Shown one piece after another: positions 17,480 through 27,277 of a stretch of 64,000 nt of DNA. Position numbers and translations under genes: made by a program. This stretch comes from Candidatus Thermochlorobacter aerophilus. Lineage in GTDB: Bacteria; Bacteroidota; Chlorobiia; Chlorobiales; Thermochlorobacteraceae. Where the stretch lies: contig PHFL01000001.1 of the NCBI GenBank assembly GCA_002794105.1, positions 41,082 to 105,081 on the forward strand. The letters are read 5' to 3'. Every line of letters starts with the position of its first letter. The stretch's first letter is position 1. The notes under the pieces are model-generated. The model was not told the origin of the DNA, searched no databases, and saw only the letters and a program-made list of their open reading frames with translations.

Positions 17480-17569
17480 ATATAAAACATTCGTTTTTTA
17501 TGCTAAGCTGTTATATTGCAAGCAGAAGTAGACATCAAAAAATCAGCAACACATAACAAAACTTCTCGG

Positions 17570-19243
17570 ATGAAGCATACTTACATCTTACCTCAGGCTC
17601 TGCTTAGCTTGCTCTTTTTTTTGCTTTATGTTGGGTGCTCTTCGCCCAGTGCCGTCCTTAAACTTGACCCTCCAGAAGAGACGCTTTTGGAGCCAGCACC
17701 CGTTGACCCAGTCAAAATCGCCTATCTTGATTCGTTAAGTCGTGCTCATGCTCTCGAGCGCCAACAAGCCATTGCCACACTTATTCGCCTCAAGGAAAAA
17801 GAGCAACGCAAAAGCAAGGCTTTTAAGCTGGCGCGCGTCAAATTCCTTAGCGAACTGGCTGAAAAGCAACATCAAGAAAAAAGCGAGGAGCTTGCCGCCA
17901 CGCTCACCGAAGCAATCGAACTCATTGCCGAGCTATTAGAACATGAAGAGCTAGAGCGCGATTTTAATTTTTGCTGGATGGCGTTTCGCATTCTTCAGCT
18001 CTATGATGAGCATGTTCTTCCTCTTGCAAAGTTGGATACCGACAATCCTGCCTTAGCTATTCGCGAACGCTTGCTTTGCAATCCTGAGCAGATGTCTGTC
18101 GATGAAAATCTCTTTGCTGGTATGCTTTTACCGAAGACGCAGATTCCGCTTGTGCTCAATGCAGAGGTCAAAAAGTTTATCACCTATTTTTCTACTTTTC
18201 CGAAGGTGAAGGAGATTTTTCAACGCTACTTGCATCGTGCGGCGCTGTATTTTCCGACCATTGAGCGCGTCATTGCCGAAGAAGGTGCTCCACCTGAACT
18301 GATTTACCTTTCTATCATTGAAAGCGGTGTCAATCCTCATGCTCGCAGTCGTGCTAACGCAGTTGGCATGTGGCAATTTATCAAGGAGACAGGTCGGCTG
18401 TATGGGTTAGCTGGCAACAAGTGGTTTGATGAGCGGCGCGACATCATCAAATCGACACGCAGCGCTATGCGTCATCTCAAAGACCTCTATCAACTCTATG
18501 GCGATTGGTATCTTGCACTTGCCGCTTACAATGCCGGTTCTGGGCGCGTCAATAGAGCTTTATACAAGTCTCCACATCAGCGCGACTTTTGGGCACTGCG
18601 TAAGTATTTCCGTCGTGAAACCCAGCAATATGTGCCGCGCTACATCGCCGCTACGATTATTGCGCTCTATCCCGAACGCTTTGGCTTTGAGCCCATACGC
18701 TTTGCCAAGCCCATAGAGTATGATGAAGTTATCGTGCCAGATTGCATCACGCTCCCGACGCTTGCCGCATACTCTGGTATCGATGTGGATACACTTCAAT
18801 TTCTGAATCCCGAACTTTTCAAAAACATGACCCCTCCTGCTTACAAGGGCTATGTGCTTCGTGTTCCAAAAGGGCGCGGTGCCGATATGGCGGCAGCGAT
18901 TGAAAAAATTCCAGCTGGTGAGCGGCTTTATTTCATTGCACATAAAGCCAAGCGAGAAGAATCCTTACTGGCGCTTGCCAAGCAATACAAAGTTTCTGCT
19001 GATGTCCTCAAGCAGTTCAATGAGCTGAAGACTTGGGCTGTGCCAAAGGGCAGTGTGGTCATGATTCCTACTACATCAGAAGTATTTCAAACAGTCAGTT
19101 ACGCTTTGTCCGACCTGTCTGATGATAGCCGTGAGGTGCGCTATCGCGCTCGCTACCGCAAGCGGTATGCCCTGCGCAAGCGCCACAAAAAGGGTCGCTC
19201 GACAGCGGCTATATCTTTGCCTGCTTCTGCATCCATTTGTTAA
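17570..19243 (+). CDS. MltD-like lytic transglycosylase lipoprotein with LysM-like repeats
   Basis: About 557 residues, starting at ATG 17570 because MKHTYILPQALLSLLFF followed by YVGCSS is a lipoprotein signal peptide with the lipobox Cys near residue 24. A frame from TTG 17516 would bury the signal. The middle holds an SLT (GH23) domain: APPELIYLSIIESGVNPHA, with the catalytic Glu in IES, then ANAVGMWQFIKETGRLYGL and ALAAYNAGSGRVNRA. After residue 390 there are LysM-like segments (VDTLQFLNPEL, YVLRVPKG, ESLLALAKQYKVSADVLKQFN). The C-terminus is very basic. It would cleave peptidoglycan from the outer membrane inner face. Confidence 0.9.
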   Translation: MKHTYILPQALLSLLFFLLYVGCSSPSAVLKLDPPEETLLEPAPVDPVKIAYLDSLSRAHALERQQAIATLIRLKEKEQRKSKAFKLARVKFLSELAEKQHQEKSEELAATLTEAIELIAELLEHEELERDFNFCWMAFRILQLYDEHVLPLAKLDTDNPALAIRERLLCNPEQMSVDENLFAGMLLPKTQIPLVLNAEVKKFITYFSTFPKVKEIFQRYLHRAALYFPTIERVIAEEGAPPELIYLSIIESGVNPHARSRANAVGMWQFIKETGRLYGLAGNKWFDERRDIIKSTRSAMRHLKDLYQLYGDWYLALAAYNAGSGRVNRALYKSPHQRDFWALRKYFRRETQQYVPRYIAATIIALYPERFGFEPIRFAKPIEYDEVIVPDCITLPTLAAYSGIDVDTLQFLNPELFKNMTPPAYKGYVLRVPKGRGADMAAAIEKIPAGERLYFIAHKAKREESLLALAKQYKVSADVLKQFNELKTWAVPKGSVVMIPTTSEVFQTVSYALSDLSDDSREVRYRARYRKRYALRKRHKKGRSTAAISLPASASIC

Positions 19244-19321
19244 GCACTCGTAGCAGAAACTTGCCCTTTCGGATTTCAAGAAAAATTTAGATTATAGGGC
19301 TTTAAACCTAATGTCAGAAGT

Positions 19322-20800
19322 GTGAAGCAATTTGCGCACGATGGTTTCTGCAAAGCCCTTGTTTTTCTGATGCTTTCACTTGCCTTAGGTGCGTGCAGTC
19401 CCGATGACAAAAGTCCAATTGCACAGTTCTATCATGAGTTTACGGCATACTTTAACGCCTACTACAATGCCACGGTCGAGTATGAGAAAGGCTTGAAAGC
19501 CATGAAAGGCTCAGTCAGTTATGAGCGCAACGCTCGCCTGCAAATTTTTATCTCGCTTGAAAATGCCGCACAAGGCAAGCAGTTTTTCGACCGTGTTATT
19601 GAAAAAACCGCTCTCGTTCTCAAAGCGCACCCCAATAGTTCCATTGCCGACAACGCTCTGCTGCTCATGGGCAGAGCCTACTACTACCAGCGCGAGTTTG
19701 AAGCGGCTGAACGCAAGTTCAAAGAAGTGCTTTCCAACTACCCCGATAGTGATGTGCTCGATGCCGCCACGTTTTGGTATGGGCGCTGTCTTGCGCAGCA
19801 GCAGGAAACCAGCAAAGCCAAAGAAGTTTTGGGCTCAGTTATTGCTTCTCCCAAAACCAGCAACGCCGTGCGTGCCGATGCTCATTTTGCACTTGCTGAG
19901 CTAGCTATTCGTGAAGACAGGCTCTCAGAAGCTATTGAGCAAATTGAACTGGGTTTAGCCCTCGCTACAGATGTTGAGCAGAAAGCTCGCGCCACTTTCG
20001 TTTTGGCACGCATCTACGACCGACTTGGCAATTTCAAAAGCGCTGCTTCGTACTACCAAGCCGTGCTTAATCTCAACCCTGATTTTGAGCTGCAATATGC
20101 CGCTATGCTAAGCTATGCACTCGATTTGCGTGAGCAAGGTCACTACGATGATGCTGTACGCGCGTTTCAGCGTATTCTTAGCGATGACAAATACCTTTCC
20201 AAATTTCCTGAGGTGCGCTATGAACTGGCGCAGTGCTATGAGTTGCAAGACCGCTTGGGCAAGGCATTAGACCTTTATTTTGAGATTATTCGTCGCCACC
20301 GGCGGACGGAATTTGCGGCGCGCAGTTACTTACGCCTAGGATATATCAAGCAAGAGATTTCTCGCAACTATGCCATGGCGCTTGCTTTTTATGATAGTGC
20401 CAGAGCCGAGTTCAATCAAGGCGAGGTAGGCGAACTTATTGCTGCCGCATCGCAGCGTATGGAAAAAATCCTGAAACTCTATGAAAGTCGTCAAGCTCTG
20501 GATAGCACCTTGCGGTTGGGTATCGTTAGCTCGGAGCGCAGTGCCACGCGCAGCCGACGCCCCGACACCAGTGTTGTGCGAGACAGTCGCACCCCGTTGC
20601 AGCGCACTCGTCGCGATTACCGCCGCAGCGTCTTTCTCGAGCTTGGCGGCATAGAAAGCTTTAGCGATTCTACCGAGACACGCACAACAATTCAGCGCTC
20701 TAAAATCACCTTCGAAGCCGCACGCGATACACAGACCTACCTCAATACAAACTCGCCTACATTGACTACTCTGCCGCAATTGCCAACTTTTACCAAATAA
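19322..20800 (+). CDS. TPR lipoprotein, N-terminal part of a gene split by a frameshift
   Basis: Starts at GTG 19322 and encodes 492 residues before a stop at 20798-20800. The N-terminus is a lipoprotein signal with lipobox LALGACS. FYHEFTAYFNAYYNATVEYEKG follows, a pattern I associate with the SprE/PorW-like TPR lipoproteins of Bacteroidota. Several TPR units are visible between residues 80 and 390. The last 13 residues (after YLNT) look random. In frame 1, from base 20752 on, the sequence reads KLAYIDYSAAIANFYQI and runs straight into the next reading frame (20803-21426). One missing base in the run ACAAACTC (20747-20754) would join both parts into about 700 residues. Confidence 0.8.
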   Translation: MKQFAHDGFCKALVFLMLSLALGACSPDDKSPIAQFYHEFTAYFNAYYNATVEYEKGLKAMKGSVSYERNARLQIFISLENAAQGKQFFDRVIEKTALVLKAHPNSSIADNALLLMGRAYYYQREFEAAERKFKEVLSNYPDSDVLDAATFWYGRCLAQQQETSKAKEVLGSVIASPKTSNAVRADAHFALAELAIREDRLSEAIEQIELGLALATDVEQKARATFVLARIYDRLGNFKSAASYYQAVLNLNPDFELQYAAMLSYALDLREQGHYDDAVRAFQRILSDDKYLSKFPEVRYELAQCYELQDRLGKALDLYFEIIRRHRRTEFAARSYLRLGYIKQEISRNYAMALAFYDSARAEFNQGEVGELIAAASQRMEKILKLYESRQALDSTLRLGIVSSERSATRSRRPDTSVVRDSRTPLQRTRRDYRRSVFLELGGIESFSDSTETRTTIQRSKITFEAARDTQTYLNTNSPTLTTLPQLPTFTK

Positions 20801-20802
20801 AC

Positions 20803-21426
20803 TTGTTCATTCCTGATTCTGCCAAAGCGTGGTATCATCTCACACTCAAACTTATTGATGACAGCCTACACACTTTTCCTGACTCTTTGAAGCAGAAACT
20901 ACACGCTCAAAAGGCACCGCTACTCTATGCTCTGGCTGAAGTCTATCGTGCTGAAGGACAAACCGCATTGCAAGATTCACTCTACAAGCTGATTTTAGAC
21001 AAATTTCCTAACAGCAAATATGCTGACCGCATCCGTGAATACTTTGGCTTACCACCGCTGGTAAAAGACACAACAGATGAAGAACGGCTCTATGCACTTG
21101 CAGTCTTAGACTTCGAGCGCAGCAGAGCTACACTGGCTTTGCAAACATTAGATTCGTTAATGCGTGCTTTTCCCAATTCTACACTGCGCCCCAAAATGCT
21201 TTTGCTCAAAGGATTTATCTTCGAGAAGGCTTTTGCTTTGCCTGATTCTGCTATATCGGCTTATTCACTTTTGGTGAAACTTTTTCCAGACTCTGAAGAA
21301 GCTAAGTCTATTCAAGAAAAGCTAAAGCTCGCCCTGCAAGCAAAGGCGGCAAAAGCTGATTCGCTTTCAGCCCCTGTCAAGGGCACCAACCACAGGATAG
21401 GCTCTGAAAAAAAGATGCAACATTAG
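20803..21426 (+). CDS. TPR protein, C-terminal part of the frameshifted lipoprotein gene
   Basis: Called from TTG 20803, but this is not a natural start. The same frame is open upstream to 20704, and its last 17 codons before 20803 encode protein-like sequence (KLAYIDYSAAIANFYQI). That continues the TPR lipoprotein encoded one frame away from 19322. The 207 residues contain TPR units such as ALAEVYRAEGQTALQDSLYK and ALQTLDSLMRAFPNSTL, and a Lys/Ala-rich C-terminus. So this is best read as the C-terminal third of the same gene, displaced by one missing base near 20750. Whether the shift is real, a sequencing error or recoding cannot be told here. Confidence 0.7.
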   Translation: MFIPDSAKAWYHLTLKLIDDSLHTFPDSLKQKLHAQKAPLLYALAEVYRAEGQTALQDSLYKLILDKFPNSKYADRIREYFGLPPLVKDTTDEERLYALAVLDFERSRATLALQTLDSLMRAFPNSTLRPKMLLLKGFIFEKAFALPDSAISAYSLLVKLFPDSEEAKSIQEKLKLALQAKAAKADSLSAPVKGTNHRIGSEKKMQH

Positions 21427-21474
21427 CTCTGCCAAATCCGAAATGGACACTGCGCATGAAAAATTAATCTGGCT

Positions 21475-22281
21475 ATGGCATCATATTCTTCTTCACTTGT
21501 GCGCGATGAGTGCTTAGAAGTGGTAGATAATCAACATCTGACGTCCAGCATTAGCATTCTTTCACTGCATGCGCCATACTTTGCATCAGTATTGCGGGCT
21601 GGTCAGTTTTTGGAAATTCGAACAAGTGATTCATTTATACCACTGCTACGCCGCCCATTCAGCATTCACCGTGTAGTTGGCGAATACATTGAGATTATGG
21701 TTAAGGTTTTTGGCATCGGCTCACGTCAGCTCTATCATGCTCGCAAAGGTGACAGATTTCAAACCCTTGCGCCGCTTGGTAATACCTTTAGCTATGAACG
21801 TGATGACTTTGATGTTGCGCTCTTGGTCTCCGGCGGCATTGGTGTAGCACCCATGCCGATGCTTGAAGAGGCATTGCGTGCTCGTGGCAAAGTCGTCTAC
21901 AACTTTGTTGGCGCTCGCACGGCTGAAGAGGTCATCACACGCTACCTTTCCAATGTTTTCGTTGCCACCGACGATGGCTCATTGGGCTACAAAGGCAATG
22001 TGGTAGCACTGCTGTCAGAGCATCTGGAACAATTTCGTGGCGCACGCATTAGGGTCTTTGGTTGTGGGTCGAATCGAATGTTGGATGCACTCTGTAAGCT
22101 TTGTAACGCTCGTCACTTAGATTGTGAAGTATCGCTCGAGTCCATGATGGGCTGAGGTATTGGTATTTGCTACGGCTGTCCAATTCGTGTGCGCAATGCA
22201 AATGGACATGTGCGTACCGAATTGCTTTGCCAATATGGCAGTGTTGTTGATGCCCGCACGATTGTTTTCGATGACATCTAA
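21475..22281 (+). CDS. pyrK: PyrK-like dihydroorotate dehydrogenase electron transfer subunit with in-frame TGA at a [2Fe-2S] cysteine
   Basis: PyrK carries FAD and a [2Fe-2S] cluster and passes electrons from the class 1B dihydroorotate dehydrogenase PyrD to NAD+. The N-terminal FAD domain has LRRPFSIHR and the NAD domain LLVSGGIGVAPM. The frame reaches SLESMMG and then a TGA at 22153-22155. Homologues read MGCGIGxCxxC here. After the TGA the same frame gives GIGICYGCPIRVRNANGHV, later LLCQYGSVVDARTIVFDDI, and TAA at 22279-22281. The other three cluster cysteines and the family's C-terminal motif are therefore intact, and only the first Cys codon is a TGA. With readthrough the product is about 268 residues. 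No pyrD is adjacent. The next gene begins 12 bases after the distal stop. Confidence 0.85.
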
Positions 22282-22292
22282 CTCTATACCTT

Positions 22293-22640
22293 ATGTCCAG
22301 CTACATTGCACTATTTATTCCAGACCTGATATTTCGAACTCAGGTCCGACTCGCTATGCAGGATACACCGTATGAACTCAAATTTTGCATTTCGCCAGAT
22401 ACCCTTTCCGAAGCACATCCACCTGCACTAGCTGTCTTTGACCTGAGTTTCGGCGAGCTTGACCAACTTGAGCGTTTCCGCCAACGTTTTCCTAATGTGC
22501 CGACTCTTGCTTTCTTGCCACACATGCAAACTCAGTTGTATGAGCAAGCCCGAACCATGGGCTGCACAAAAGTCGTCTCTCGCTTTGAATTTTCTAAGAA
22601 CATTCGCAAACTTCTTATGGAACTGGCTTCAAACGTTTAG
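22293..22640 (+). CDS. Stand-alone pseudo-receiver-like protein
   Basis: A 115-residue protein with the size and alternating strand/helix pattern of a response-regulator receiver domain. IALFIPDLIFRTQVRLAM would be beta-1 and alpha-1. ALAVFDLSF places an Asp at the phospho-acceptor position. PTLAFLPHM and KVVSRFEFSKNIRKLL would be beta-4 and beta-5. The acidic pair after beta-1 is replaced by Pro-Asp and the conserved Lys after beta-5 is missing, so ordinary phosphorylation is doubtful. It begins 12 bases after the distal pyrK stop, consistent with an operon. Its function is unknown. Confidence 0.55.
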   Translation: MSSYIALFIPDLIFRTQVRLAMQDTPYELKFCISPDTLSEAHPPALAVFDLSFGELDQLERFRQRFPNVPTLAFLPHMQTQLYEQARTMGCTKVVSRFEFSKNIRKLLMELASNV

Positions 22641-22716
22641 CCTGAGCTTTGGTTTACAAGTGCTGGTAACTTGTCAGACACATTTAGATTGAAAACCCAA
22701 AAACACAGGCAGAGCT

Positions 22717-23214
22717 ATGTTTGAATTCACAGAACTTTCAACAGCTACAAAAACTGAGTTTTACAAAGCCCTTACCAATCAACTCTATACCCTTTTGGGC
22801 AACGAACATGATTTGATTGCCAATGCGGCTAACCTTTCTTCCTTACTTTTTCACACTATGCCCGACCTGAACTGGGCTGGTTTTTACTTCTACAAGCAGG
22901 GCGAACTTGTATTAGGTCCGTTTCAAGGTAAGCCTGCTTGCACACGCATTGCTCTTGGCAAGGGGGTCTGTGGCACCGCCGCTCAACAGCGCAAAACTAT
23001 CATCGTTGCAAACGTACACGAATTTCCCGGGTATATTGCTTGCGACCAAGCCTCAAATTCCGAAATTGTTGTTCCAATAGTTAAAAGCGGTCAACTGGTT
23101 GGGGTGCTCGATCTTGATAGCCCTGTGCTAGCACGCTTTGATGAAGAAGATAAAGCTGGCTTAGAAAACTTAGTGGAGGTATTTTTATCTAGGACTGAGG
23201 TACACTTCTTTTGA
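22717..23214 (+). CDS. msrC: Free methionine-(R)-sulfoxide reductase (GAF-domain fRMsr)
   Basis: A 165-residue single GAF domain. LNWAGFYFYKQGELVLGPF, then KPACTRIALGKGVCGTAA and GYIACDQASNSEIVVPI, contain the three cysteines that define fRMsr enzymes; the last one (IACD) is the usual catalytic Cys. The enzyme reduces the R form of free methionine sulfoxide in the cytoplasm using thioredoxin. It lies on the plus strand between the pseudo-receiver and the LON-domain gene, probably with its own spacing of about 76 bases upstream. Confidence 0.92.
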   Translation: MFEFTELSTATKTEFYKALTNQLYTLLGNEHDLIANAANLSSLLFHTMPDLNWAGFYFYKQGELVLGPFQGKPACTRIALGKGVCGTAAQQRKTIIVANVHEFPGYIACDQASNSEIVVPIVKSGQLVGVLDLDSPVLARFDEEDKAGLENLVEVFLSRTEVHFF

Positions 23215-23282
23215 TTGCAACAGTTACAGAGTTTGATATTGCAAGTATTCTTGGTTAGCTTTATGGTTCTTTCCAACGACTG

Positions 23283-23939
23283 ATGAAGATGGGGTTAAAA
23301 ATGGCTGAAAAACGTATCATACCTCTTTTTCCGCTACCGCTTGTTGTCTGTCCCGAAGAGACTTTGCCGCTGCATATTTTTGAGGAGCGCTATAAGGCAA
23401 TGATTGCCTATTGCCGCAAAGAGCGCCAGCCTTTTGGCGTCTCGCTGGCGTACAACAATAAGCTTTATTCCGTAGGCTGTACCGTAGAGCTTGAGGAAAT
23501 TGTTAATGAATATCCTGATGGTCGGTTGGATATTATCACAGTCGGCGTCATGCGCTATAGGATGCTTGAGACCTATAAAGACAAGCCCTACTTGCGCGCC
23601 GCTGTAGAATTCTTTGATGACGATGGTGAACCTGTTGACCCAACCCTGCGCCAGCGTGTCATTACTTTGCATCTGAAGTTCATTGAACTGCTTCAGGGCG
23701 AGACCACTGTCGAAGACTACGACTTCCACGAGCGTGTCTCGTTTCGTGTAGCGCACTCTGCTGGGTTTGATGTGCTGCAAAAGCAGAAGGTTTTGGAAAT
23801 GACCAACGAAAACAAACGACTTGAAATGCTAATCGAACACTTTGAGAAAATCATCCCCGACATTGAGCGTACTGAGGAAATTAAACGCCGTGTGCGCTCT
23901 AATGGTCATTTCAAAAATCTGCGGTCTTTTGATTTGTAA
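23283..23939 (+). CDS. LON substrate-binding-domain protein
   Basis: A 218-residue protein matching the N-terminal domain of Lon protease without the ATPase or protease parts. It has RIIPLFPLPLVVCPEETLPL, then HIFEERYKAMIAYCRKERQPFGV and GCTVELEEIVNEYPDGRLDI. An alternative ATG at 23301 (MAEKRIIPLFPL) starts closer to the domain and may be the true one. Stand-alone LON-domain proteins are widespread in bacteria and their function is poorly known. The C-terminal 70 residues form a helical bundle. nadC follows 24 bases downstream. Confidence 0.88.
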   Translation: MKMGLKMAEKRIIPLFPLPLVVCPEETLPLHIFEERYKAMIAYCRKERQPFGVSLAYNNKLYSVGCTVELEEIVNEYPDGRLDIITVGVMRYRMLETYKDKPYLRAAVEFFDDDGEPVDPTLRQRVITLHLKFIELLQGETTVEDYDFHERVSFRVAHSAGFDVLQKQKVLEMTNENKRLEMLIEHFEKIIPDIERTEEIKRRVRSNGHFKNLRSFDL

Positions 23940-23963
23940 CGCTCTCTACGGAAGCTCATTGAG

Positions 23964-24875
23964 ATGAGTCGCCAAACACTGCTCACTTCAGATGCTTTTG
24001 CAGAGTTTCATACCCATTGCGAAACGGAAGCGATTGAGCTTGCAATGCTCGAAGATCTTTACGAGGGCGACCTTACCACGGAAGCCATTATTCCAAAAGC
24101 TCATCGCAGTAAAGGCATCATTCGTGCCAAGTCAGACGGCGTGATTGCTGGCGTGCGTGTCATGACACGCATTTTTTCCATGTCGAAAAATCAGATGTCT
24201 ATTAGCATACGCAAGCACGATGGCGAGCGCGTCAAAGCTGGCGATGTGATTGCCGAAATTACTGGTAGCACGGAAACACTCTTGCTATGCGAACGCACCG
24301 TGCTCAATTTTATGCAGCGCATGTCTGGCATTGCCACCAAGACTGCAGAATGGACTGCACTTATTGCACACACAAAAGCTAAACTTTTAGACACACGCAA
24401 AACTGCACCAGCCTTGCGCTACTTCGACAAAGAAGCGGTCAGAATTGGCGGCGGTCTTAATCATCGCTTTGGACTATACGACATGATGCTTATCAAAGAC
24501 AATCACATTGATGCTGCAGGTAGCGTGGCTGAAGCCATTCGGCGTGCCAAAGACTATCGCAAGCGCAAGGGTTTAGATGTCAAAATTGAAGTCGAAGTGC
24601 GCTCGCAAGACGAGCTGCAAGACGCCCTGCGCTTCTCGCCAGACATCATCCTTCTTGACAACTTTCCACTTCCCGATTTGAAGAAAGCTGTCAGCTTTGC
24701 GCGCTCAAAGTCACCAGCAGTCCTGCTGGAAGCCTCTGGCAGTGTGAGCAAAGAACGGCTTTGCGAGATTGCTGAAACTGGCGTAGACTTCATCTCCGCT
24801 GGCGAATTGACACATAGCGTTACAGCAATGGATATTTCTATGAAAATTGTGCCTCTCTCGAGTGCAACGCCATGA
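23964..24875 (+). CDS. nadC: NadC, quinolinate phosphoribosyltransferase (carboxylating)
   Basis: Converts quinolinate and PRPP to nicotinate mononucleotide, CO2 and PPi in de novo NAD synthesis. The 303-residue sequence has EDLYEGDLTTEAIIP near the N-terminus. The family motifs NFMQRMSGIATKTAEW, LLDTRKTAPALRYFDKEAVR and GGGLNHRFGLYDMMLIKDNH hold the Arg, Lys and His that bind quinolinate and PRPP. EVEVRSQDELQDAL and DIILLDNFPL complete the barrel, and LLEASGSVS is the phosphate-binding turn. The stop overlaps the next lipoprotein start by 4 bases (ATGA), so the two genes are translationally coupled. nadA and nadB are not in the window. Confidence 0.96.
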   Translation: MSRQTLLTSDAFAEFHTHCETEAIELAMLEDLYEGDLTTEAIIPKAHRSKGIIRAKSDGVIAGVRVMTRIFSMSKNQMSISIRKHDGERVKAGDVIAEITGSTETLLLCERTVLNFMQRMSGIATKTAEWTALIAHTKAKLLDTRKTAPALRYFDKEAVRIGGGLNHRFGLYDMMLIKDNHIDAAGSVAEAIRRAKDYRKRKGLDVKIEVEVRSQDELQDALRFSPDIILLDNFPLPDLKKAVSFARSKSPAVLLEASGSVSKERLCEIAETGVDFISAGELTHSVTAMDISMKIVPLSSATP

Positions 24876-25393
24876 TGCAGAGATGGCTTTTTTTGGTCTG
24901 CGTAGGTGTAACGATTATGCTCTGCTTTTCGTCATGCGGTCAGGGGCTAGAACCTGAATACCGCGCAACTGACGCTCAGGCACGCGGACGATTTCGTGGC
25001 ACAATTACCTTCAAAAACTTTCCACCACCTGTGCCAGATAGCACGCGCCCCGATAGCTTGCGTGAACTTCTGCTGGTGGTCTATCGCATAGCGCCCAGCC
25101 CCGAAACCTTTTTTGACCTCAATATTCTCGCCGATACGATTTTCTTGCGCCCGTTCTATGTTCCGCTGCTGCGCTATGAGCGTGAAATTGCCGCAGGCAC
25201 ATACGAATATGTGGCTGTAGCACAGCACTTTCGTGGCTTTGTGCTCAATCCAAATGACTGGCGTCCCGTAGGTGTCTATGGCGGCAGTCGCGATAATCCG
25301 CGTGGCAAGCCCCTCATTGTGCGCCCCAACGCTCTAACCGATAGCGTTGACATTGATGTCGATTTCTGGAACCCGCTTCCTTTCCCGCGCTAA
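24872..25393 (+). CDS. Small lipoprotein of unknown function
   Basis: A 173-residue protein starting with a lipoprotein signal peptide, MMQRWLFLVCVGVTIMLCF followed by SSCGQ, with the lipidated Cys near residue 23. The mature part has many beta-strand-like stretches (FRGTITFKNF, LLLVVYRIAP, GTYEYVAVAQHFRGF) and Pro-rich loops, suggesting a small beta-sandwich on the periplasmic or outer surface. I know of no family match. It overlaps nadC by four bases and precedes pstS by about 80 bases. A role in NAD synthesis is unlikely, so the coupling is probably incidental. Confidence 0.65.
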   Translation: MMQRWLFLVCVGVTIMLCFSSCGQGLEPEYRATDAQARGRFRGTITFKNFPPPVPDSTRPDSLRELLLVVYRIAPSPETFFDLNILADTIFLRPFYVPLLRYEREIAAGTYEYVAVAQHFRGFVLNPNDWRPVGVYGGSRDNPRGKPLIVRPNALTDSVDIDVDFWNPLPFPR

Positions 25394-25456
25394 TGGCTTG
25401 TGTTAAGTTTTTGTTACGCTATTTCGATACCGTGACCTATATGCTAAGTTTGGGTT

Positions 25457-25475
25457 TATCACTTACGAAGTGATA
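25457..25475. promoter_or_regulatory. 19-bp palindrome ending in the pstS start codon
   Basis: TATCACTT (25457-25464), a 3-base spacer ACG, and AAGTGATA (25468-25475) form a perfect inverted repeat. Its last A is the first base of the pstS ATG. It could be an operator for a dimeric regulator or an mRNA hairpin covering the ribosome-binding region. No Shine-Dalgarno-like purine run is seen other than the GAAG inside the palindrome. It does not resemble the E. coli Pho box. Confidence 0.4.
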
Positions 25476-26275
25476 TGCGAAGGTGCGTTTTTTCGATTAG
25501 CCTGTTTCTTGCCATTTTTGGTTGTGCTGTTCCAGACCGCCCGATTACGGTGCGCGGGTCCGACACGATGGTTGCCCTTGGACAAAAGTGGGCGGAAATT
25601 TACATGAGCAAGTTTCCCCACCAGACGGTGCAAGTCAATGGCGGCGGCAGCGGTACAGGCATTGCGGCACTGATTAACTGCACAGCTGATATTTGCCAAT
25701 CCTCTCGTCCTATGAAAGCGCGCGAGCGCAAGAAAATTCAAGAAAAATTTGGTCACGAGGCAATTGAAATTCCCGTCGCCAAAGATGGCATCGTCATCTA
25801 TGTGCATAGGGATAACCCTATTTCCAAAATTTCTATCCCTCAACTTCGCAAGATTTACACGGGCGAAATCCAAAACTGGAAAGAACTCGGCGGCGAAGAC
25901 CGTCGCATCATTGTCTATGGGCGCGAAAACAGTTCTGGCACGTATGAGTTTTTCAAAAAGGAAGTTCTTAAAGGCGCCGACTTTGCCGACCATGTTCAAA
26001 CCCTGCCGGGCACAGCCGCCATCGTTAATGCTGTCAGCAAAGACCTTTATGCCATTGGCTACGGCGGCAATGCTTACTCACAAGGGGTGCGCATCTTGCC
26101 TGTCAGTCGCACCGATACCTCACAAGCCGTGGAAGCCAATGAACAGACCATCACCACAGGCGAATATCCAATCTCACGCAACTTATACTTCTACCTTGCC
26201 AAGCCACCAAATGCAGTTGTTCAGCATTTCATTGATTGGGTTCTGAGCGACGAAGCACCAAGCTATTGTCGTTGA
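25475..26275 (+). CDS. pstS: PstS, phosphate-binding lipoprotein, with a probable frameshift at its C-terminus
   Basis: A 266-residue periplasmic phosphate-binding protein. The signal peptide ends in a lipobox-like FGCAV. ITVRGSDTMVALGQKWAE, NGGGSGTGIAALINCTADI, SSRPMK and YGRENSSGTYEFFKKEVL are the phosphate-binding loops of the PstS family. The frame stops at SDEAPSYCR. One base earlier in phase (from 26259) the sequence reads QAIVVEQGYFPIK, which is the expected family C-terminus (WVLSDEGQ..GYFPI). One extra base in GCAC (26255-26258) would explain this. The shifted frame has no stop directly after the motif, so the original end is uncertain. pstC and pstA follow. Confidence 0.9.
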   Translation: MRRCVFSISLFLAIFGCAVPDRPITVRGSDTMVALGQKWAEIYMSKFPHQTVQVNGGGSGTGIAALINCTADICQSSRPMKARERKKIQEKFGHEAIEIPVAKDGIVIYVHRDNPISKISIPQLRKIYTGEIQNWKELGGEDRRIIVYGRENSSGTYEFFKKEVLKGADFADHVQTLPGTAAIVNAVSKDLYAIGYGGNAYSQGVRILPVSRTDTSQAVEANEQTITTGEYPISRNLYFYLAKPPNAVVQHFIDWVLSDEAPSYCR

Positions 26276-26404
26276 GCAAGGTTATTTTCCCATCAAAACA
26301 CTGGCTTCTTCAAGCCGCACGAAGACGACATCTCAACTCATCTATGAACACCATCTACACGAAGAACGCCAGTCCAGGTTCGCGCTGAATGGATTGACCG
26401 CATC

Positions 26405-27277
26405 ATGTATGCCATTATCGTAGCGGTTGCCGCCATTGCCCTTTCCATGATTTTTCTCATTTTCATTTTCACATTCAAGGAAGCCAAAGATGTTTTTTTC
26501 GATGCAGACACACGCCATGAAGTTCTGCCGACACTCTTCAGCACAACTTGGCAACCTGTGTCCGACAATCCCAAATACGGCATCATTCCTTTGATTATTG
26601 GCACACTGAAAACCACCTTGATTGCCATGGTGATTGCTGTGCCGATTGGCGTGCTTGCAGCTCTTTACACTTCGTGTTTCGCACCAGCTTGGCTACGAGA
26701 GCTCATTAAGCCAGCTGCAGAATTGTTAGCTGGTTTTCCTTCTGTCGTCATCGGCTTCTTTGCGCTGTTTGTCTTAGCTGATGCACTGCAGCCTCTGACT
26801 CAGGCAGAAGTAGGACTGATGCCATTGGTAGGTGGCGTAGCAATTTCCCTGACGGCAATTCCTATCATCTTTACCATTTCTGAAGATGCGCTCTCGGCAG
26901 TACCGAATCCCATTCAGGAAGCCAGTTATGGGCTTGGTGCCACACGCTGGGAGACAGCATTTTACATCACTTTGCCTGCGGCGTATCCGGGCATTTTTGC
27001 CGCTTCACTTCTCGGCTTCGGTCGTGCAATTGGCGAAACGCTTATCGTGCTAATGGCAACTGGCAATGCACCCATTTCTTCTTGGACACTTACCGACTCT
27101 GTGCGCACACTTACGGCAGCCATCGGCGCAGAAATGGCAGAAGTCGTCTTCGGCGACCCACACTACAGTGTGCTTTTCTTGATTAGCACCGTGCTCTTTT
27201 TCTCAGCACTGATTTTGAACAGCATCGCAGAGTTCTACATCAAAGAATGGCTTATGAAAAAATTCAGCGGTGAGTGA
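26405..27277 (+). CDS. pstC: PstC, phosphate ABC transporter permease
   Basis: A 290-residue inner membrane permease with six predicted helices, forming the phosphate channel with PstA. The permease EAA-type loop is IQEASYGLGATRWETAFYITLP, and LLGFGRAIGETLIVLMATGNA is the PstC family signature. The ATG at 26405 is the first usable start in this frame, but the protein-like sequence TPVQVRAEWIDRI precedes it in the same frame. An ATG at 26344 (MNTIYTK) would read into it if one base were added near 26365. The true N-terminus may thus be about 20 residues longer. Confidence 0.92.
   Translation: MYAIIVAVAAIALSMIFLIFIFTFKEAKDVFFDADTRHEVLPTLFSTTWQPVSDNPKYGIIPLIIGTLKTTLIAMVIAVPIGVLAALYTSCFAPAWLRELIKPAAELLAGFPSVVIGFFALFVLADALQPLTQAEVGLMPLVGGVAISLTAIPIIFTISEDALSAVPNPIQEASYGLGATRWETAFYITLPAAYPGIFAASLLGFGRAIGETLIVLMATGNAPISSWTLTDSVRTLTAAIGAEMAEVVFGDPHYSVLFLISTVLFFSALILNSIAEFYIKEWLMKKFSGE

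Follow-up and report, generated by a model that had tools for sequence, protein, structure and literature searches.

The closest described counterpart of the gene considered here is PyrK of DHODB, known from Lactococcus lactis (1EP1 and 1EP3) and from the entries 5KSW and 5UE9, in which a MxCGIGxCYxC motif and a fourth Cys at the C-terminal end are found. Proteins of the NfnA/SudB type (NfnI small subunit) belong to the same fold family and align at the site in question, and an Asp(Cys)3 [2Fe-2S] cluster has been reported for them (PMC8097209). A third point of comparison is offered by bacterial selenoprotein variants, in which TGA replaces the codon of a redox or metal-binding Cys.

The window is a stretch of 64,000 nucleotides from contig PHFL01000001.1 (C9) of Candidatus Thermochlorobacter aerophilus, the source being probably a metagenome-assembled draft Chlorobiales genome. 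Translation of the window at 21475-22281 gives a frame that reads SLESMMG, a stop, GIGICYGCPIRV and, at its far end, LLCQYGSVVDARTIVFDDI and a second stop. Its parts are as follows.

21475 to 22281, + strand: pyrK-like gene for a DHODB electron transfer subunit, interrupted in C9; the intact counterpart is C15:190974-191777 on the - strand
22140, + strand: the other C9/C15 difference in pyrK, GAG against GAA, synonymous, from contig comparison
22153 to 22155, + strand: in-frame TGA, codon 227, TGC in the C15 counterpart, from frame reading, contig comparison and orthologue alignment
22156 to 22278, + strand: remainder of the [2Fe-2S] domain 3' of the TGA, 41 codons, with 72-82% identity to relatives and covered by PF10418

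The preliminary description had placed an in-frame TGA at the first [2Fe-2S] cysteine, with the remaining domain intact behind it as far as the TAA at 22279-22281 (the following ATG is at 22293). Both coordinates and reading are correct: the frame itself, a Pfam PF10418 match with one internal TGA in a profile search of the organism's own assembly, and an orthologue alignment in which the TGA lies opposite a Cys codon all agree.

Like DHODB PyrK, to which it can be matched over the full length (PDB 5ksw_B, E 2e-20), the intact product carries the MxCGIGxCYxC motif and the fourth C-terminal Cys. All four cluster cysteines, the first within M-x-C-G-I-G, are present in the C15 copy and in relatives, and the PF10418 domain lies at the C-terminal end of the C15 protein (31.2 bits, cut-off 23.9); in C9 the first of the four is TGA, which sets this copy apart from DHODB PyrK. 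NCBIfam NF000799 is the top family (E 4e-41), yet its score of 140.7 bits is below the curated equivalog cut-off of 314, and the product is therefore called PyrK-like. A pyrD family gene for a partner of the class 1B type is also present, on contigs C10 and C57 (TIGR01037, 320 bits, cut-off 270, a model that may not tell class 1A from 1B), although, unlike in DHODB, pyrK and pyrD do not adjoin here.

The PyrK iron-sulfur domain occurs at two places in the assembly, in the window with its internal TGA and at C15:190989-191114 with none. The C15 copy has TGC at the site in an open frame of 273 codons and encodes an unbroken 268-aa pyrK product, SMMGCGIGICYGCPI. The two pyrK stretches share 99.94% identity across 6501 bp and form part of a far longer duplication.

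17519 to 64000, no strand assigned: portion of the window also present on contig C15; the overlap continues to the end of C9, C9:58600-109592 corresponding to C15:195727-144742 at 99.933% identity

Because this overlap of about 51 kb runs at either side up to the end of a contig, it represents one locus assembled twice and not a gene duplication. The C15 copy was considered as a real paralogue and rejected, being the same locus in an end-to-end contig overlap, and a third near-identical copy of the pyrK region was not found in the assembly. A further overlapping pair, C10 and C57, carries pyrD and shows similarly clustered differences (C10:21085-38930 against C57, at least 17.9 kb, 99.85%). 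The source assembly comprises 80 contigs and 3.43 Mb, its contamination being estimated at 12.13%; two same-genus genomes have about 2.8-2.9 Mb and contamination of 1-2%. Upstream of the window, C9 also holds a 705-bp repeat at 92.8% identity (C9:22431-23135 and C9:26783-27487).

Across the 51 kb, 29 difference events between C9 and C15 are listed, and they are clustered at window positions 17542-26909 and again from 60596 on to 68478 (numbering carried past 64000), while the contig comparison gave none in the 33.7 kb between 26909 and 60596. The indels among them are changes in homopolymer length, and several fall in neighbours of pyrK.

20746, + strand: 1-base deletion relative to C15, by which the 709-codon frame of a TPR-type lipoprotein gene upstream is divided in two, from contig and relative comparison
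26258, + strand: extra C relative to C15, shifting the frame at the end of pstS, from contig comparison
26791 to 26909, + strand: four paired compensating homopolymer indels in pstC that alter conserved-looking residues relative to C15, from contig comparison

The TPR-type gene runs unbroken in C15 and in a same-family relative, and the pstC residues produced by the paired indels of C9 are, as we assume, wrong for PstC. Within 5.5 kb, then, the TPR gene, pyrK and pstS are broken in C9 only, whereas a hydrolase (60596) and the end of tsf (62788) are broken in C15 only and whole in C9. Since each contig alone breaks some genes, both thus contain consensus faults, each with its own patch, and the frameshifts at 20746 and 26258 are probably such faults and not pseudogenes. 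The earlier argument, that more damage than in pyrK would be expected of a decayed gene, fails for the stretch as a whole, where adjoining C9 genes are also frame-broken. A second component is visible in the 13 single-base substitutions, the majority of which are transitions. Eight of the 12 substitutions that can be placed in coding frames are synonymous, which exceeds the expectation for random error, so that strain variation is probably mixed into part of the differences; one synonymous change lies 15 bases from the TGA.

It had been proposed at the outset that a plain Cys codon in all close relatives would make the TGA an error or a private mutation, and this is the situation found: all 16 other orthologues examined (32-77% identity in aligned segments) carry TGC or TGT at the site and none carries TGA. 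In the same-genus genome G002, pyrK is split by a frameshift (C17, about 16860) and upstream of it the genes of MltD-like and TPR type appear in shifted frames too; this genome is probably another error-rich draft. NfnA/SudB-like paralogues across the order have Asp (GAC or GAT, motif VDGTGMCGGC) at the aligned position where PyrK has its first Cys, in agreement with the Asp(Cys)3 cluster of NfnA/SudB (PMC8097209). As the NfnA/SudB type has Asp there, the comparison shows that the first cluster ligand can be replaced in evolution, though by way of a sense codon.

Three kinds of explanation had been put forward, namely an error in a single base or a nonsense mutation of very recent origin, readthrough, and selenocysteine. 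The first is supported by the intact C15 copy and the uniform Cys codons; the other two are not supported. A selenocysteine serving as ligand of the [2Fe-2S] cluster would account for a TGA exactly at a Cys codon with the domain behind it intact, but it is extremely improbable. In the organism's own genome a profile search found no match to SelA (the E. coli control was positive), and the top matches to SelB (198 bits, cut-off 242) and SelD (76 bits, cut-off 125) were sub-threshold and are proteins that, by eye, we take to be EF-Tu and ThiL. No tRNA-Sec was found there either, the sole RF01852 match over the cut-off being tRNA-Ser(CGA) according to ARAGORN. A single fold of the 51 nt around the TGA gave no bSECIS hairpin (-10.1 kcal/mol against -12.7 for shuffles, z +1.1), the segment folding slightly more weakly than its shuffles. 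Sec and Cys do not alternate at the site among the 16 orthologues, a literature search for PyrK with selenocysteine turned up nothing on point, and an intact TGC copy is present in the assembly itself; in its want of Sec machinery, folded element and conservation the pyrK case is unlike the known Cys-to-Sec variants. Readthrough of the UGA by a near-cognate or suppressor tRNA would fit the open and conserved frame beyond it, but that conservation is to be expected of a normal gene that is intact in C15, and relatives lack the TGA. In addition, TGA is an ordinary stop elsewhere in the window, as had been noted earlier, and indeed the commonest one among long frames, closing 20 of the 37 that span 250 codons or more from stop to stop. 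Such readthrough is very unlikely, and it is a shade less credible still that a subpopulation of this Chlorobiales species truly has a pyrK UGA at the first ligand and makes full protein through low-level readthrough. An alternative code with TGA as a sense codon was rejected on the same 20 of 37 frames.

The TGA is best regarded as either an error in the sequence or a mutation private to this copy, rather than as a novel reading of the code, since it stands in only one of two copies while the other copy and all relatives checked have Cys. As between error and mutation, the synonymous transitions resemble strain variation, so that C9 may represent a genuine minor haplotype and its TGA a genuine allele. 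A minor strain whose pyrK had truly acquired a nonsense mutation not long ago, and which hence lacked the cluster domain, would then have been co-assembled with a strain whose gene is intact. The synonymous share of the placed substitutions, the predominance of transitions and the change only 15 bases from the TGA favour this account and count against error. The change to TGA, however, creates a stop by transversion and differs in this from those synonymous transitions; frame-breaking homopolymer indels lie in unrelated genes of the same 6 kb of C9; the paired compensating indels in pstC are a mark of consensus error; and no third genome copy backs the TGA. A minor-strain allele is accordingly unlikely, although it is by a wide measure more plausible than readthrough or selenocysteine. 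Error is also supported by the C9/C15 and C10/C57 overlaps, by the breaks confined to one contig or the other, by an assembly of 3.43 Mb where same-genus genomes have 2.8-2.9 Mb, and by the contamination of 12.13%. A private difference that is most likely a consensus error is thus our preferred and the probable explanation, and we infer an erroneous base here rather than a real minor-strain allele. On this view the two contigs are redundant and the TGA is private to one of them, the A at 22155 being most likely a wrong consensus call in a poorly resolved part of C9 (window 20.7-26.9 kb), where several frame-breaking homopolymer indels also lie.

These results carry a warning: in draft genomes, a TGA that falls in frame at a conserved Cys can mimic selenocysteine, and such cases are resolved fast by looking for another copy within the assembly. 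The C9 sequence at window 17.5-27 kb is unfit for claims of pseudogenes or recoding. Within the genus, tRNA-Ser(CGA) is a false tRNA-Sec positive to watch for, as the one at C59:46990-47075 reaches 49.1 bits on the Rfam tRNA-Sec model, above the gathering score of 47. For the organism itself, pyrK would have TGC (Cys) at the site, and its product would be an ordinary PyrK-type protein of 268 aa that carries all four cluster cysteines.
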